Shown here: one piece after another, positions 7,118-47,017 of the stretch
Position numbering within the stretch: position 1 is the first letter of the stretch
How the letters are laid out: every line of letters begins with the position of its first letter
NCBI RefSeq assembly: GCF_900110605.1
Contig: NZ_FOFI01000003.1
Location: 806,001 to 870,000 of the forward strand
Origin: Epilithonimonas lactis
Lineage (GTDB): Bacteria; Bacteroidota; Bacteroidia; Flavobacteriales; Weeksellaceae
Direction: 5' to 3'
DNA: 64,000 nt
Program-made: the position numbers and the translations under genes
Notes under the pieces: model-generated
Database searches by the model: none
Told to the model about the DNA's origin: nothing
Seen by the model: the letters and a program-made list of their open reading frames with translations, nothing else

Positions 7118-7837
7118 CTAATTCAAATAAGACAAACTCTTAGATTCCTTATTTTCATTAAGAGAAATTCCCCAAAAATAGATTTTCAATATAGCGTCTG
7201 TATATTTATCTCTTTGAGCTTTATTGATACTCTTCCTTCCCAATCGTTTTATATGAGTGCGTAAATCAAGAAATTTACGCTCAATATGATTGGTTTCTCT
7301 TCGTTTTGTACTGTGGAGATGCTTTGGAATTAATTTAGGATAGATATTCAAGCGATCACTGTATATCTTTTTTGGATTTGCATAAAGTAAAGTATTTATA
7401 ATACATTGTATTGTCTTGGTCGTTCTTCTCCCAAGCTTATAGTCAATAACTTTCTTTGTTTCCCTGCAATAAGCTGCAACTACCCACCGTTCATTGGTTT
7501 TACTTTGAGTGTATGTTTTTAACTCATCAATTTCGATTGTAATATTCTTAGGAATTGGTGGCTTAACAACTTTAGAAGCAATCTTTAAAATCTTTCTAAG
7601 TACAGTTGTTTTGCTGACATCAAGTAATCTGCTGATACCTCTAATACCAACTCCTTCTTTTATCAGTTGTTGAATATTATGATTAGTATTTTTATGATAT
7701 GCACGATAAGAATAGTTCCCAATGAACTTCTTTTTACATTTTTTGCACTGATAGCGCTGCTTATTTTGTGATGTTATTCCTGCCTTGATACAGTAGCTGT
7801 AATTACAGTGAATACATTGATTTCGCCGTTTATTCAT
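7118..7837 (-). mobile_element. IS1-family-like transposase
   Basis: A 239-residue transposase in a single frame. An N-terminal zinc finger (CIHC at residues 8-11, CKKC at about 32-35) is followed by a helix-turn-helix (GIRGISRLLDVSKTTVLRKI) and a DDE catalytic core: Asp in IEIDELKTY, Asp in IYSDRLNIY, and Glu in NHIERKFLDLR. This architecture matches the IS1 family. The protein looks full length, so the element may be active. The outer inverted repeats were not resolved. A related sequence occurs twice beyond the right end (7859-7877 and 8014-8032), and a perfect palindrome lies at 7045-7090 beyond the left end. It sits between a frameshifted regulator and tRNA-Asp. Confidence 0.85.
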
Positions 7838-9877: not shown

Positions 9878-10465
9878 TTAGTGAAAAAATCGGTAATGCG
9901 ATTCATTGGCGAACTTAAACATTGGTTTGTCCCCAGAAGTGTCTCCGAAAGCTATGATCTTATCGAATTTCTTATCACCAAGTTCGGCTTCTATTCTGCA
10001 GACCTTCTCATCTTTATTACAATTTTTGCCGATGAACTTCCCTGTAAAAATATCATCTTTGAACTCCGCTTTTGTAGCCAGCAAAGTCATATCAAACTTC
10101 TCCGCAAATGGTTTTACCCAAATATCCAAAGACGCTGAAACGATGTAAGATTCCGTATTTTCTCTGTTGATATTATTAATGAAATCCAAAGCATTTTCTC
10201 TGAACAAACTTGGATAATTCTCCTCGAAGAACAGTTTTGCTTTTTTCTCGATTTGATATTTGGATTCACCTTTCAAGATGGATGAGATGAAACTCTTTTT
10301 CACCGCTTCTGCGCTGGCTAATTTTAATTTTAATAAGACAAAAAGCGGCACGTGTTTCAGAAATTGAAACGAATATTTGGCAGGATTATAAAACTTCAAA
10401 AACAAAAACATCGTGTCTTTGTGAGTGAGCGTTCCGTCGAAATCGAATAAATATAATTTTTTCAT
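9878..10465 (-). CDS. HAD-IB phosphatase, likely of the polyprenyl-phosphoryl-pentose pathway
   Basis: HAD-superfamily phosphatase of 195 residues. Motif I is FDFDGTLT with nucleophile Asp8 and acid Asp10, motif II is the Ser in VSASLDIW, the Lys is in NCNKDEK and motif IV is GDTSGDK. It resembles the SerB-like IB subclass. The ATG at 10465 directly precedes the HAD core; an earlier in-frame start at 10504 lies inside a repeat. It is the last gene of the UbiA-DprE1-DprE2-like cluster. The pathway needs removal of a 5-phosphate from polyprenyl-phosphoryl-5-phosphoribose, and this enzyme is the best local candidate. That assignment is inferred from position and family. Confidence 0.85.
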   Translation of the reverse strand: MKKLYLFDFDGTLTHKDTMFLFLKFYNPAKYSFQFLKHVPLFVLLKLKLASAEAVKKSFISSILKGESKYQIEKKAKLFFEENYPSLFRENALDFINNINRENTESYIVSASLDIWVKPFAEKFDMTLLATKAEFKDDIFTGKFIGKNCNKDEKVCRIEAELGDKKFDKIIAFGDTSGDKPMFKFANESHYRFFH

Positions 10466-10475
10466 AAGTAAAAAT

Positions 10476-10524
10476 GGAAGATGGAAGATGGATGTAAACT
10501 TCAATCATCCAACTTCCATCTTCC
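10476..10524. repeat. Heptad repeat, palindromic, before HAD gene
   Basis: Successive 7-base units GGAAGAT, GGAAGAT, GGATGTA, AACTTCA, ATCATCC, AACTTCC, ATCTTCC. The two halves form a 19-bp stem (10476-10494 with 10506-10524) with one mismatch. It ends 10 bp before the HAD start codon. Confidence 0.8.
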
Positions 10525-10529
10525 CTCTT

Positions 10530-11255
10530 TTAAAGTTTTAACTTCTTAAAAATAAACTCAGGAATATTTCTAATGATCAGCATGATGATTGCCCAAATTG
10601 GTAAAACGTAGGCGACGTTCTTTTTATTTTTGAAAGCTTTGTAAATTCCTTCGGCTGCTTTTTTTGGAGAAGCTGTCAAAGCTGGATTCAATGGTAAACC
10701 TTCTGTCATTTTGGTATCCATAAAACCAGGTTTCACGGTCAACACGTGAACTTTTTTATCAAACAAATAATTTCTTAGTCCGCTCAGATAAGCTGTTAAT
10801 GCCGCTTTTGCACTACCGTAAATGAAATTGCTTTGTCTTCCTCTTTCGCCTGCGACAGATGACAAAACAATCATTGTTCCAGCTCTTTTGGATTCCATTT
10901 TTTTGGCGAATAAGTTGAGGACAGGAACTAATTTCGCATAATTGACATCAATAATTCTTTCAGTATTTTCATCATCGTAAAGTCCTTCTTCTGTTCCCAG
11001 ACCAAGATAGCCAGTCGCGCAAAACAGAACATCAGAATTGATAGTTTCCAAAGTTTTATAATCGATGTCATTCATCAGATCCAAAGGAATGATCTCGGAA
11101 TGCTGAAAAAACTTCACCTGAATATGTCCAGCAAATTTCTCCGTCGTTTCCGGATTGGAACTTAGGAGATAAATGGTCTGAAATTTTTCGCCTTTCGCCA
11201 AACATTCTTCTACAAATGCCTGTGCAACTTCGGAATTGGAACCTAATATGATCAT
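10530..11255 (-). CDS. DprE2-like short-chain dehydrogenase
   Basis: Short-chain dehydrogenase of 241 residues. The nucleotide-binding motif LGSNSEVAQAF is at residues 4-14. The catalytic residues are Ser132 or Ser133 (VLSSVAG), Tyr146 and Lys150 (YGSAK). A C-terminal hydrophobic stretch (IWAIIMLIIRNIPEFIF) suggests membrane association, as in DprE2. In the DprE1/DprE2 pair the SDR reduces the 2-keto intermediate to complete epimerisation of decaprenyl-phosphoryl-ribose to arabinose. The adjacent FAD enzyme, 75 bp upstream in the same direction, supports that role. The intergenic space holds a heptad repeat. Confidence 0.88.
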   Translation of the reverse strand: MIILGSNSEVAQAFVEECLAKGEKFQTIYLLSSNPETTEKFAGHIQVKFFQHSEIIPLDLMNDIDYKTLETINSDVLFCATGYLGLGTEEGLYDDENTERIIDVNYAKLVPVLNLFAKKMESKRAGTMIVLSSVAGERGRQSNFIYGSAKAALTAYLSGLRNYLFDKKVHVLTVKPGFMDTKMTEGLPLNPALTASPKKAAEGIYKAFKNKKNVAYVLPIWAIIMLIIRNIPEFIFKKLKL

Positions 11256-11263
11256 AGTAATTA

Positions 11264-11330
11264 GTTGTCGGTTGTAAGTTGTCAGTTGCTGGTAGAGAAT
11301 AGATTTCTATCAACCATCAACAAAAAACTA
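11264..11330. repeat. Heptad repeat before dprE2-like gene
   Basis: 7-base units GTTGTCG, GTTGTAA, GTTGTCA and GTTGCTG at 11264-11291, with an opposite-strand set resembling ACYATCA in 11308-11330. It ends 8 bp from the start codon at 11255. Confidence 0.75.
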
Positions 11331-12647
11331 TCACCCATTATTAATAATTCTCTTATGCTGAAGTGAAACAAACTTCGAGGAATCAACGTTTTGAAGATAA
11401 TTCGTGAGCGATGAACGGCTCATACTGTCTTTGGTCAAATATATTCTTCCGCCGAAATTCTCGACAATTGTATCGAGTTGGTCAACCAGCTTTCGAAGTC
11501 CTTTGTTCACTTTAAAGTCCAAAGCCAAAGTGTAACCTTCGACTGGAAAAGAATTGTAGGCTTGTGGATTGTTTTTTCCGAACAATTTCAAAACTGCTAA
11601 GAAAGAACCGTTTCCACTTTTTGCAATGGTATCAAGGATTTGTCGCATTCCTTCTTTCCCGTTTTCTTTCGGAATGACCATTTGATATTGGATAAATCCA
11701 CTTTTTCCGTAGATCTTGTTCCAATCATTAATGACATCCAATGGATAGAAAAACGTTTCGTAATCAATGAAATTATTGAGTTGCTTCTTCGTCTGTTTGT
11801 TGTAATAAAGGAAATTGAAAATCTTTATACTCAAAGAATTAAGAACGAATCCTGGAAAATAAAATGGAATCGTTGGCTTTGGTTTCTCTTTCAGCTTCAA
11901 AGTTTTCTTTTGAAGGTTGACAGGTAATTCGGCTTTCAAAGCGTGTTCGCCTCTCATCAAAATTGAACGACCAAGATTTTTTCCTTTCTGAAAACAGTCG
12001 ATCCAAGCGACGTTGTAGGTCCAATCTTCACTTTCATCAAACAATCGGAAAACCTCATCCAGATTTTCAGCTTTGATGCTTTCTTGCTTGATGTAAACAG
12101 ATTCTATATTTTTCAGTTTGAATTTGGCTGAGAGAATAATTCCCGTCAATCCCATTCCACCGATTGTAGCCCAGAACTTGTCCGCGTTTTCTTCGCGCGA
12201 GCAAGTGATGACTTCGGCATTTTCGTTCACCAATTTAAATTCGATCACGTATTCCGAAAAGCAACCTTCTGCGTGGTGGTTCTTCCCGTGAACATCAGAC
12301 GCGATGGCGCCTCCAACGGAAATATATTTGGTTCCCGGCGTCACGTAAAGAAAGTAACCTTGAGGAACAGAAACTTCTAAAACTTCTGACAACAAAACGC
12401 CGGATTCACATTCGATAACGCCGTTGAGTCTATCAAAAGATATAAATTTGTTGAGTCTTTTGGTTGAGAAAATATGTTCGCCAAGGGAAGCATCGCCGTA
12501 GCAACGTCCGTTTCCCCTTGCAATCACTTCGTTGTGATCTTTTACAAATTGTTTGATCTTCGAAACAGAATCTTCCGACTTCATCTCCTTCTCTACCACT
12601 GGGAAATTTCCCCAATTGGTTACTTTCTGAATAAAATTCGGTTTCAT
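11331..12647 (-). CDS. DprE1-like FAD-dependent oxidase (polyprenyl-phosphoryl-ribose 2'-oxidase)
   Basis: FAD-linked oxidase of 438 residues. The FAD-binding N-terminal domain has ARGNGRCYGDAS (residues 43-54) and the near-diagnostic VGGAIASDVHGKNHHAEG (residues 111-128), matching the DprE1 type rather than alditol or gulonolactone oxidases. The substrate domain keeps the TKDS lysine (about residue 406), equivalent to the catalytic Lys of mycobacterial DprE1. At the position of the benzothiazinone-reactive Cys387 the motif reads TLALDF, with Ala375. It oxidises the 2' hydroxyl of polyprenyl-phosphoryl-ribose, and DprE2 then reduces the ketone. It is flanked by the UbiA enzyme upstream and DprE2 downstream. 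Confidence 0.9.
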   Translation of the reverse strand: MKPNFIQKVTNWGNFPVVEKEMKSEDSVSKIKQFVKDHNEVIARGNGRCYGDASLGEHIFSTKRLNKFISFDRLNGVIECESGVLLSEVLEVSVPQGYFLYVTPGTKYISVGGAIASDVHGKNHHAEGCFSEYVIEFKLVNENAEVITCSREENADKFWATIGGMGLTGIILSAKFKLKNIESVYIKQESIKAENLDEVFRLFDESEDWTYNVAWIDCFQKGKNLGRSILMRGEHALKAELPVNLQKKTLKLKEKPKPTIPFYFPGFVLNSLSIKIFNFLYYNKQTKKQLNNFIDYETFFYPLDVINDWNKIYGKSGFIQYQMVIPKENGKEGMRQILDTIAKSGNGSFLAVLKLFGKNNPQAYNSFPVEGYTLALDFKVNKGLRKLVDQLDTIVENFGGRIYLTKDSMSRSSLTNYLQNVDSSKFVSLQHKRIINNG

Positions 12648-12725
12648 CTTTTATTGGTTTTAAAGGTCAAACTTGATCTCCATACTCTCTTCGTCATTTG
12701 TTTTATGTTTTTAATCTTGTGGTGA

Positions 12726-13616
12726 TCACCCTTTTTTAAAATAGATCTGCAATAGGAAAGCAATGACCCAAAGTACAATCGTCAACTGAATATATCGGTC
12801 TTTGTAAACTATTTTGGTGGGCGACTCGGTCTTGTTGTAAACCAAGGTCTGCTGCAAATATCTGAGAAATGCGAACACTACAAATAATACAGTGTAGAAA
12901 ACCCTCGGGTGAAATCTGTCCTGAACTTCTGGCGACAACGTAAACATCAAATAACAGATAATTGCCAAAGTACAACTGATGGACAATGCAATGTCTGCAA
13001 ACTGAACATTATAACCGTCTAGCGCTTTTCTGGTTTTGCCAGACACTTGTGCATTGATCAATTCGCCTCTTCTTTTCCCAATCGCTAAAACCAAGGCCAA
13101 AACGAAAGTTAATAGAATCGCCCAATTGGTGACGGCAATTCCGGTGACATATCCGCCGGCTAAAACCCTTAGAACAAATCCTGTTGCAATGATACAGATA
13201 TCTACAATCGCCACCTGTTTCAGTTTGAAAGTGTAGAAAAGATTCATCACAAAATAGAAGGCGATAATCACACCGAACTTCCAAAAATTGGTCTGGAAAA
13301 TGTAATTTCCTAAGAAAATAGAAGCAACGGACAATATTACCAATAGCGCAAACAAAACCTCTGCACTTCTCTTGGAAACCGCACCGCTGGCCAAAGGTCT
13401 GTCTTTTTTTTCCGGATGCCTTTTATCTGACTCTATATCAAAATAATCATTGATAATATAGATTGAACTTGCCGTAAATGAGAAAACTAAAAAGGCAAAA
13501 ATACTTTCGTAGAATAGGTGGGAATTGGTAATCTTCCCGGAAAAAAACAATGGTGCAAAAACAAATAAATTCTTAACCCATTGTTCTACTCGTATTAATT
13601 TTAAATAGTTTTTCAT
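12726..13616 (-). CDS. UbiA-family polyprenyl-phosphate phosphoribosyltransferase
   Basis: Integral membrane prenyltransferase of 296 residues with about eight transmembrane helices. The first active-site motif is NDYFDIESDKRHPEKKDRPL from residue 56, the N-D-x2-D-x3-D-x2-HP form with a following K-x-R-P that marks 5-phosphoribosyl-1-diphosphate:polyprenyl-phosphate transferases (Rv3806c type) and separates them from quinone or heme UbiA enzymes. The N-terminal RVEQWVKNLFVFAPLFF also fits that branch. It would start the pathway by joining PRPP to polyprenyl phosphate. It is first in a cluster with DprE1, DprE2 and a phosphatase, all on one strand. Confidence 0.9.
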   Translation of the reverse strand: MKNYLKLIRVEQWVKNLFVFAPLFFSGKITNSHLFYESIFAFLVFSFTASSIYIINDYFDIESDKRHPEKKDRPLASGAVSKRSAEVLFALLVILSVASIFLGNYIFQTNFWKFGVIIAFYFVMNLFYTFKLKQVAIVDICIIATGFVLRVLAGGYVTGIAVTNWAILLTFVLALVLAIGKRRGELINAQVSGKTRKALDGYNVQFADIALSISCTLAIICYLMFTLSPEVQDRFHPRVFYTVLFVVFAFLRYLQQTLVYNKTESPTKIVYKDRYIQLTIVLWVIAFLLQIYFKKG

Positions 13617-45377: not shown

Positions 45378-46985
45378 TCAATGTTTGAGTTTCTCGGTTT
45401 CGGCGATGATTTTTTTCAATTGGATCTTCTCTTCAACAGAAAGTTTTCTTTGAAAAATACCTTGATGAAGATTTGTCCCTAAATATTGCGGGAAAATGCC
45501 GTAGTAATCGTAAAGCCTTAAATTATAGATATTGACCGTTGGAAAAGTTGCTTCGCCACTAAAACTCTTAGAAACTTTGAAGCTGAAATTTCCAATCCTA
45601 AATTCCTTATTTGTATGAGTTGTTTTCAATTCTTTTGGTCTGTAAAGTTGGGAAAAACTAAAATCCGACATTCTCTTCCCCATATTGAACTGTTGCACAA
45701 AGACAGGAAATGTAAAAACTACCAAAATAAAAATGGAAAGAAAAACCGCCGTGAAGACCGATTTCTCCTCTGAAAAATCCTTAACGAGTAAAAATAAGGC
45801 AATCACATAAACATCAATAAAAAATCGATATTGCGCTGAAAATGAAATGATAAAAATCGATTTTATAATTAAACAGATCAATAATAAATAGTAAAAGCGA
45901 CTCTTTCTTCTCCATGCAAAAAATCCGACAATCGATAACGAAACAATCACACCGATATTCAATATCGATTTGTAACCAATTGTAAACCAATGATAAACAC
46001 TATCCATTAAATCAAATCCCATCACTTGCTGGTAAGAATACTTCATATCATAAGATTTCATCAGACCGATTTGAGACGAATAGTTAAGAATCTCTTGGCT
46101 TGGTTTCCACGGTAAATCAAAATCAACCAGTGCAGCAGGAAAAATAGGAAATCCAAAGAGCCAAAGATTTTTCATCATCAATAAAATCCCAAAAACAAAA
46201 ACTGGAATTATAGTTTTAAAATCAAATTTTCTCTGATCGATCTGATTTAAAATCACAAAAAGTGGCAACCAGAAAACAATCGGCTTGATGCAGACTGCAA
46301 ACAATGATAGATAAAGTAGGATTGAATTTTCTCGAGCATTCATCAATTCATTAATGACAATTAGAGTGATGATTACAATCGGCAGATCTGGACTCGGCTG
46401 CTGAACGAACAATAAAAACATAGGTAGAAAAACCAACAGAAAATATTGTTTTCGCTCGTAAATATAAATCAAAAATAAAACGGCCAAGTACGAATTTATT
46501 TTCAAATATAGATCTGCAAAATGTGAAAATCCGGCCTGATAAATATGCCAAAAGGAAGTCTGACCTAACAACAAATCAAAATTTGAAATTCCTTTTACAA
46601 AACCTAACTCCTTCAAATAAGAGATGGTCGGGAGATAATAGCTGTAATGGTCGTACAAATACGGTGAAAATGAACTGGCAAAAATAATGATGAAGCCGAA
46701 AAAGTAAAACCAAAAATTGGTATTGATCTTTAATCTTGATTTTTCTTTTGTCATGAAAAACAGAACTGTTCCTAATAATCCTATAAAAATAAATAGAATC
46801 TCAACCGAAGAATTCAGCGGAAAAAAGAAGGCAAAAACAGTTTCTAAAAGCGCAATGCTGATCATTCCCAAAAATGAGGTCAGAACGAAACTCCGAGTCT
46901 CAATTTTGAGCAGATTCCTGATGATCATTCCGTTTCCGAAATTGACCATAAGCAACATCAACACTGTGAGGAAAATTAAAATCAT
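45378..46985 (-). CDS. Polytopic membrane protein, LIC_10190-like
   Basis: 535 residues from the ATG at 46985; the longer form starting at 47012 would begin inside a terminator hairpin. About ten to twelve hydrophobic segments run from residue 1 to about 410, then a soluble C-terminal region (TFPTVNIYNLRLYDYYGIFPQYLGTNLHQG). The layout resembles integral-membrane glycosyltransferase or polymerase families with a small soluble tail, and the LIC_10190 group of Flavobacteria. I cannot name a substrate. Confidence 0.6.
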   Translation of the reverse strand: MILIFLTVLMLLMVNFGNGMIIRNLLKIETRSFVLTSFLGMISIALLETVFAFFFPLNSSVEILFIFIGLLGTVLFFMTKEKSRLKINTNFWFYFFGFIIIFASSFSPYLYDHYSYYLPTISYLKELGFVKGISNFDLLLGQTSFWHIYQAGFSHFADLYLKINSYLAVLFLIYIYERKQYFLLVFLPMFLLFVQQPSPDLPIVIITLIVINELMNARENSILLYLSLFAVCIKPIVFWLPLFVILNQIDQRKFDFKTIIPVFVFGILLMMKNLWLFGFPIFPAALVDFDLPWKPSQEILNYSSQIGLMKSYDMKYSYQQVMGFDLMDSVYHWFTIGYKSILNIGVIVSLSIVGFFAWRRKSRFYYLLLICLIIKSIFIISFSAQYRFFIDVYVIALFLLVKDFSEEKSVFTAVFLSIFILVVFTFPVFVQQFNMGKRMSDFSFSQLYRPKELKTTHTNKEFRIGNFSFKVSKSFSGEATFPTVNIYNLRLYDYYGIFPQYLGTNLHQGIFQRKLSVEEKIQLKKIIAETEKLKH

Positions 46986-47017
46986 AAAAAAAGATTGCTT
47001 AAAAATAAGCAATCTTT
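46986..47017 (-). terminator. Terminator after glycine-zipper lipoprotein
   Basis: AAAGATTGCTTA and TAAGCAATCTTT pair at 46990-47017, with a T run on the minus strand that reaches the ATG of the downstream membrane protein. Confidence 0.88.

Follow-up and report, generated by a model that had tools for sequence, protein, structure and literature searches.

A stretch of 64,000 nucleotides from the genome of Epilithonimonas lactis, family Weeksellaceae (assembly GCF_900110605.1, contig NZ_FOFI01000003.1, positions 806,001 to 870,000; called the window below), carries at its positions 9878 to 13616 a cluster of four minus-strand genes, which is predicted from homology, with a probability of about 0.78, to be a complete-looking donor module for polyprenyl-phosphoryl-D-arabinofuranose. 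The four genes are intact open reading frames (ORFs) in the transcription order UbiA, DprE1, DprE2 and HAD (haloacid dehalogenase), with intergenic gaps of 78, 75 and 25 bp, and their adjacency on the minus strand, as described in the initial annotation, is confirmed. They encode a UbiA-fold polyprenyl-phosphate 5-phosphoribosyltransferase of Rv3806c/PPPRS type (12726..13616, 296 aa), a DprE1-like flavin adenine dinucleotide (FAD) oxidase (11331..12647, 438 aa), a DprE2-like short-chain reductase (10530..11255, 241 aa) and a HAD-IB phosphatase (9878..10465, 195 aa). The start of the last one was placed at the ATG at 10465, which fits its relatives; the listed ORF of 208 aa opens with TTG.

In the proposed route the UbiA enzyme would join phosphoribosyl pyrophosphate (PRPP) to polyprenyl phosphate and give polyprenyl-phosphoryl-ribose-5-phosphate (step 1), the HAD enzyme would take off the 5-phosphate and leave polyprenyl-phosphoryl-ribose (step 2), DprE1 would oxidise C2 of this product (step 3) and DprE2 would reduce the 2-keto sugar to polyprenyl-phosphoryl-D-arabinofuranose (step 4). 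The donor would be flipped across the membrane by some carrier, and in the periplasm an AftB-like GT-C glycosyltransferase encoded elsewhere in the genome would most likely add D-arabinofuranose (D-Araf) to a surface polysaccharide. What was computed is which enzyme families are present, how far they are conserved and that the GT-C proteins are homologous; each of the reactions, the flipping of the lipid and the acceptor are what we infer.

Relatives of the cluster were tracked by a genome scan for DprE1, which gave at least 587 encoding stretches; the best 80 were kept and make, together with the own copy, 81 loci, in which the gene calls by longest-ORF choice and the transmembrane (TM) counts by hydropathy windows are both crude. 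The DprE1 group was found in 76 of these loci, DprE2 in 69, UbiA in 65 and a stand-alone HAD in 45. For the UbiA protein of the window the best PDB match is Rv3806c (8j8j, E 5.4e-39, residues 4-286), and the NCBIfam models of decaprenyl-phosphate phosphoribosyltransferase give it 170-225 bits against 43.5 for the UbiA model and 33.8 for heme O synthase; NF008978 is above its cut-off (212.4 bits, cut-off 207) and NF008977 is under it (225 bits, cut-off 234). In the UbiA tree the window protein stands within the DprE1-linked group and the three other UbiA-family proteins of the genome are on very long branches; the own MenA-like protein, with a branch length of 10, has no settled position, so the tree shows distance and not order. 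A grouping with quinone or heme enzymes, which the initial annotation had named as the outcome that would speak against it, did not occur, and a quinone or heme identity was set aside on the NCBIfam scores together with the tree. The NDx2Dx3Dx2HP motif is present in the window protein and kept in 64 of the 65 UbiA proteins of the DprE1 loci; the N and D residues of the NDxxDxxxD motif have been tested in Citrobacter ORF15 (PMC11127046).

The DprE1 protein is matched almost end to end by the mycobacterial DprE1 structure 4aut, its best PDB match (E 4.6e-80, residues 7-412), and its nearest named relative is from E. xixisoli (95 percent). The HGKNHH signature and the C-terminal KD are kept, and GKNHH and KD were found in 76/76 DprE1 proteins; both motifs read in the initial annotation, this one and that of UbiA, are thus present and kept across the relatives fetched with DprE1. 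A difference lies at the Cys of the solved mycobacterial enzyme, which we take to be the benzothiazinone target: in the window Ala375 sits at this site, and Ala is found there in 24/24 Weeksellaceae loci, with 49 Ala and 3 Thr in the 52 others. The best PDB match of the reductase is the DprE2 structure 21gq_C, over its length and at E 1.2e-24 (next-best reductase, E 1.1e-8); YxxxK is present in it, and YG[STA]xK occurs in 69 of 71 DprE2 proteins.

The mycobacterial pathway of decaprenyl-phosphoryl-arabinose (Rv3806c, Rv3807c, DprE1, DprE2) shares with the cluster a homologous PRPP transferase, FAD oxidase and reductase and the same reaction order; it differs at step 2, where the PAP2-type Rv3807c stands in place of a HAD protein. 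The HAD protein of the window scores above the cut-off of TIGR01490 (117.6 bits, cut-off 98.3), its catalytic motifs DxDGT, S112, K154, D175 and D179 are invariant in 19/19 aligned relatives, and DxD[GA]T is found in 45/45 stand-alone HADs of the DprE1 loci. Searching the PDB by sequence gave no match for it; its AlphaFold model (predicted local distance difference test score, pLDDT, 96) is similar to SerB phosphatases and to a Bordetella protein of uncharacterised function. A stand-alone HAD goes with UbiA in 45 of the 65 UbiA loci, in Weeksellaceae, Chitinophagaceae, Sulfurimonas, Thiomicrorhabdus and Methylococcaceae. Ten further UbiA loci encode a UbiA protein that is extended at the N-terminus to 468-509 aa; the DxD[GA]T pattern is present in seven of the ten, and both proteins scanned (L068, L072) give Pfam HAD plus UbiA. 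The remaining ten have neither a stand-alone HAD nor a long UbiA protein; in locus L052, where HAD is absent, a divergent PAP2 protein (PF02681) adjoins UbiA. The profile of the stand-alone HADs matches one of the ten fused proteins only (L072, E 5.6e-5), which places the fused HAD in another HAD group. In the laboratory the HAD-UbiA fusion of Citrobacter has made polyprenyl-phosphoryl-ribose from PRPP, its HAD part taking off the 5-phosphate (PMC11127046), which gives step 2 by a HAD enzyme a precedent. It is reasonable on homology to assign the 5-phosphate phosphatase role to the HAD protein, and the idea is already known: the proposal of the initial annotation that it replaces the PAP2-type phosphatase stands as the best reading of the sequence and loses its claim to be new.

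All four gene groups are found in 24/24 Weeksellaceae loci among the nearest DprE1 relatives, the own copy included, and in the Chryseobacterium loci L006, L010 and L016 adjacent cluster genes are overlapping or separated by no more than 7 bp, so the set is not a chance assembly. DprE1 occurs in 170 of 197 Weeksellaceae genomes and in 24 of 33 genera (E 1e-30), and in a sample of the phylum in 59 of 296 genomes and 32 of 140 genera (E 1e-60); another family of the same order gave no genome among these 59 positives and makes up all 20 of the DprE1-negatives listed in that sample. Twenty Weeksellaceae regions were fetched around DprE1 and their gene content was rechecked by tblastn, by which the complete four-gene set was found in 14. 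The neighbours are like those of the window in 11 of the 20 (L096-L100, L103, L104, L106, L107, L109, L110), which indicates that in much of the family the module has been passed on at one and the same site; there it is not complete in every Weeksellaceae genus.

Several points weigh against the donor module and have to be set beside this evidence. The prediction is one from sequence homology. The DprE1 model NF053785 ranks best for the oxidase and yields 392.6 bits, under its equivalog cut-off of 500; the DprE2 model NF053786 ranks second for the reductase at 141.6 bits, under its equivalog cut-off of 250, and NF005489 gives 236.5 bits, under 267. In 5 of the 20 fetched family regions the other three genes are not all found beside DprE1: L093, L102 and L112 show UbiA and DprE1 only, L095 DprE1 only and L101 no UbiA; in one more (L100) the contig ends before HAD. 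It is unlikely, in our estimate, that the pathway ends at another pentofuranose, for example ribose, or that DprE1 and DprE2 act on another lipid-linked sugar: the scores under both equivalog cut-offs, the four regions without DprE2 beside DprE1 (L093, L095, L102, L112) and the Citrobacter systems, in which the choice of sugar lies with the epimerase and a promiscuous GT-C can occur (PMC11127046), would agree with such an outcome, but the invariant DprE1 signatures and the near end-to-end match to the mycobacterial enzyme argue for the known chemistry, no other solved reductase comes near DprE2 as a match of the partner reductase, and candidate systems with Araf-containing glycans are reported to hold DprE1/E2 homologues (PMC11127046). 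It is slightly less probable again that the HAD gene merely stands next to the others and serves a different function, step 2 being left to another phosphatase. HAD-IB enzymes are numerous and varied, the stand-alone profile hardly reaches the fused proteins, and the PAP2 protein of L052 shows that some loci carry another type of phosphatase; against this, the stand-alone HAD accompanies UbiA over a range from Weeksellaceae to Methylococcaceae, and ten of the other 20 UbiA loci have the long UbiA, whose N-terminal part is a Pfam HAD in both of the proteins scanned.

The cluster holds no arabinosyltransferase, as the initial annotation had correctly said, and unlike in mycobacteria no Emb/AftA cluster lies beside the Epilithonimonas genes. 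The acceptor, which had been left as an open question, is less open than that, with a candidate GT-C in a polysaccharide locus elsewhere in the genome. The genome search that had been proposed for GT-C arabinosyltransferases was empty with the AftB model (below), and the PMT_2 model finds six places in the own genome, one of which is a 525-aa protein on contig C6 (G000:C6:242778-244352), in a locus with Wzc-like and Wza-like genes, a WecA-like transferase, GT2, the GT-C and EpsG. Two family loci of different genera (L108 of genome G028 and L111 of G083) have the donor cluster inside a surface-polysaccharide locus, and in them HAD is directly followed by a protein of 502 aa, for which about 10 TM segments were counted, and then by GT4, a hexapeptide transferase, GT4, GT2, an EpsG-type polymerase, GT2 and a WecA-like initiating transferase (order by Pfam in L111, and by like sequences in like order in L108). 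The C6 protein, whose locus is of this type too, and the 502-aa protein are homologous (BLASTP 26 percent over 105 aa, E 5e-5). A profile called A3, which was made from 21 GT-Cs whose fetched regions hold no donor gene, matches the DprE1-adjacent 502-aa protein at E 1e-7 to 1e-8 in whole-genome searches (coordinates of both the A3 match and DprE1 were available for G028, G083, G099, G104, G113 and G128), and hhalign of A3 with the L108/L111 pair gives E 2e-12 over 397 columns, the other four GT-Cs of the own genome giving 5e-5 or worse. Of all the evidence, this homology to a GT-C beside the donor cluster points most strongly to the putative transferase, and it is independent of the co-occurrence statistics. 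Taken together, the C6 GT-C and the polysaccharide acceptor are to us an even proposition.

The A3 proteins resemble AftB, the terminal arabinosyltransferase of mycobacteria and a member of family GT89, in the order of their conserved residues. The 21 aligned A3 sequences have an invariant DD near the N-terminus and then E145, R186 and R319. These agree with the residues used by AftB, namely D62 in the DD motif, E172, R221 and R372 (PMC12041299), by order and not by structural alignment. The solved AftB is matched at E 3.7e-12 by a GT-C near DprE1 in Pseudomonas indica (L059), and hhalign links this GT-C in turn to the L108/L111 proteins (E 8e-5, probability 62). The own-genome GT-C differs from this in having no direct significant match to AftB, so the term AftB-like is a working description and not a membership.

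Genome-level co-occurrence was also examined. A3 was found in 91 of the 197 family genomes, all of them DprE1-positive (91/170 against 0/27 negatives, p 1.3e-8), and by genus in 12/24 DprE1-positive against 0/9 negative genera (p 0.012). Outside the family, in the phylum sample, where A3 was scored on at most four candidates per genome, it occurs in 7/52 DprE1-positive against 6/237 negative genomes (p 0.003), and 7 of the 13 A3-positive genomes carry DprE1, compared with 52/289 overall. As a control a LIC_10190-family multi-TM protein was used, which is encoded in the window at 45378-47012 (544 aa; NF047510, 337 bits) and is present in 158 of the 197 family genomes; its association with DprE1 is 148/170 positive against 10/27 negative (p 9e-8). 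This nearly equals the association of A3, which alone may thus reflect shared descent, and co-occurrence was rejected as proof of the GT-C role. The window LIC_10190 protein looks like a membrane glycosyltransferase or polymerase; it was rejected as the arabinosyltransferase on account of having no profile link to A3 or to L108/L111 and of its presence in 10/27 DprE1-negative genomes. Of the 52 loci from outside Weeksellaceae, 24 have a large multi-TM protein no more than 2.5 kb away from the cluster, and multi-TM proteins make up 28/273 near genes against 8/346 far genes (p 4e-5), a count which includes some non-transferases, since the big membrane protein near the Weeksellaceae cluster of L002 reads by its sequence as a cation/proton antiporter. 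The 42 candidates compared are mutually unlike at E 0.01, apart from ten proteins of group c17 and four pairs, which would fit enzymes that each have an acceptor of their own. The c17 model resembles ArnT, AftA, AftD and AftB at a best E of 2.5e-3, which is only suggestive, and this GT-C neighbour of Chitinophagaceae loci (alignment A1) was set aside as the enzyme of E. lactis, with no match in the genome in a search that had no positive control.

It is also possible, though on balance rather doubtful, that the D-Araf donor is made for another acceptor, such as a glycoprotein, the lipid A-core or a glycan built by another GT-C. In the 11 family regions whose neighbours are like those of the window, the donor genes lie away from glycan genes, which would suit a donor that is shared. 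The LIC_10190 protein of the window and five other PMT_2-like matches in the own genome, among them L087, a 56-aa open frame with a stop, offer other enzymes. At E 1e-5 no A3 match was found in 79 of the 170 DprE1-positive family genomes, and DprE1 is missing at E 1e-60 from 6 of the 18 A3-positive genomes in the phylum sample (G200, G250, G288, G358, G374, G444). In 12 of 20 regions around A3-type GT-Cs the gene stands beside apparent rpsG and fusA and not in a glycan locus. The near-equal control association, no match of the AftB model NF041481 in the own genome, no direct AftB match of its GT-C and no match of A3 to solved structures tell likewise against the preferred reading, as does the flippase: none was found linked to the donor cluster among the GtrA type looked at, MATE and SMR types not having been searched. 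On the other side, the only GT-Cs directly behind the cluster in the family regions examined, those of L108 and L111, are in polysaccharide loci and match A3, the three other own GT-Cs tested against this pair match weakly or not at all, and LIC_10190 is carried by DprE1-negative genomes as well. We therefore prefer the surface polysaccharide as acceptor and the C6 GT-C as candidate transferase. In its wider form this reading would make D-Araf a family-wide constituent of Weeksellaceae surface polysaccharides, where an inherited donor module feeds interchangeable, strain-specific AftB-like GT-Cs; we hold this with a little less than even confidence, graded down for the regions without DprE2 and HAD beside DprE1.

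Around these transferases some further features were recorded. The own polysaccharide locus contains a GH43-like protein (L091:13241-14323, Pfam E 1.2e-9) and, directly beside the GT-C, an arginase-fold protein (L091:7699-8769), a neighbour which is the same in 10/10 small loci (L113-L122); the polysaccharide locus of this genome is seen again in three fetched A3 regions (L136, L137, L141). The A3-type GT-Cs near apparent rpsG and fusA genes (L123, L125-L128, L132-L134, L138-L140, L142; products of 158 and 705 aa) make up a second group, and at this spot the own genome has a different GT-C-like protein (L092:9116-10513). At G039:C1:1455833-1457392 the A3-type match has five in-frame stops and DprE1 is kept, which suggests that one transferase was lost. 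The GtrA-type group, named from one member (L062), occurs in 16 loci from outside Weeksellaceae and in 0/24 Weeksellaceae loci; the own genome has one GtrA, unlinked to the cluster.

D-arabinofuranose is known above all from mycobacterial walls. The three-component systems of Citrobacter youngae O1/O2 (GT136) likewise have a PPPRS UbiA and a HAD-family phosphoribose phosphatase, together with an epimerase and a periplasmic GT-C which acts on surface polysaccharide, and DprE1/E2 are reported where the sugar is Araf (PMC11127046). They differ from the present cluster, where the HAD is encoded on its own and belongs to a divergent HAD group, the donor genes are unlinked to the candidate GT-C and no GtrA-type flippase was found beside them. 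Use of a D-Araf donor in Gram-negative bacteria is found also in the pilin glycosylation by TfpW of Pseudomonas and in noeCHOP of Azorhizobium, where noeC, noeH and noeO have been likened to mycobacterial genes (PMC11841053, PMC2443382); the acceptors there are pilin and Nod factor, whereas surface polysaccharide is likelier here. A complete donor route from PRPP in one cluster, as the initial annotation had proposed, is hence the best reading of the sequence, but its principle is not new, with both the activity of the HAD-UbiA fusion and Gram-negative D-Araf systems based on DprE1/E2 already published (PMC11127046). What is new is the widespread occurrence of the donor module in Weeksellaceae and the naming of a candidate transferase and its locus. 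No paper on DprE1 in Bacteroidota that was on topic by title and start of abstract was found in an open-access library, which is a weak basis for calling D-Araf in Weeksellaceae novel, and a word search in two reviews of marine bacterial surface sugars gave no "Araf" and arabinose once each, in other contexts.

If the prediction holds, D-arabinose would be a routine surface sugar of a large family that includes Chryseobacterium, Epilithonimonas and relatives, and the predicted glycan is worth following. The enzymes that degrade D-arabinan, as reported from gut Bacteroidetes (PMC10115798), would then have a natural source and target, GT-C arabinosyltransferases would be met in a new setting, and the chemistry of DprE1/DprE2 and the role of the HAD phosphatase could be tested in a non-mycobacterial system.

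In the window the cluster is flanked upstream by genes for OmpA-like and lipocalin-like proteins and downstream by a NifS/IscS-type cysteine desulfurase and then a thioredoxin, the latter named by its sequence. About 2 kb downstream of the cluster lies an intact-looking insertion-sequence transposase of 239 aa (7118-7837), whose sequence suggests the IS1 kind. In L093 and L112, two of the regions without DprE2 or HAD beside DprE1, a similar protein of 319-321 aa is encoded by the gene that follows downstream. Small homologous ORFs (group c35) stand between DprE1 and DprE2 in E. xixisoli (L002:11277-11783) and in a metagenome-assembled genome of Kiritimatiellales (L027); their sequence recalls GxxExxY-type proteins, which is given as a candidate label.

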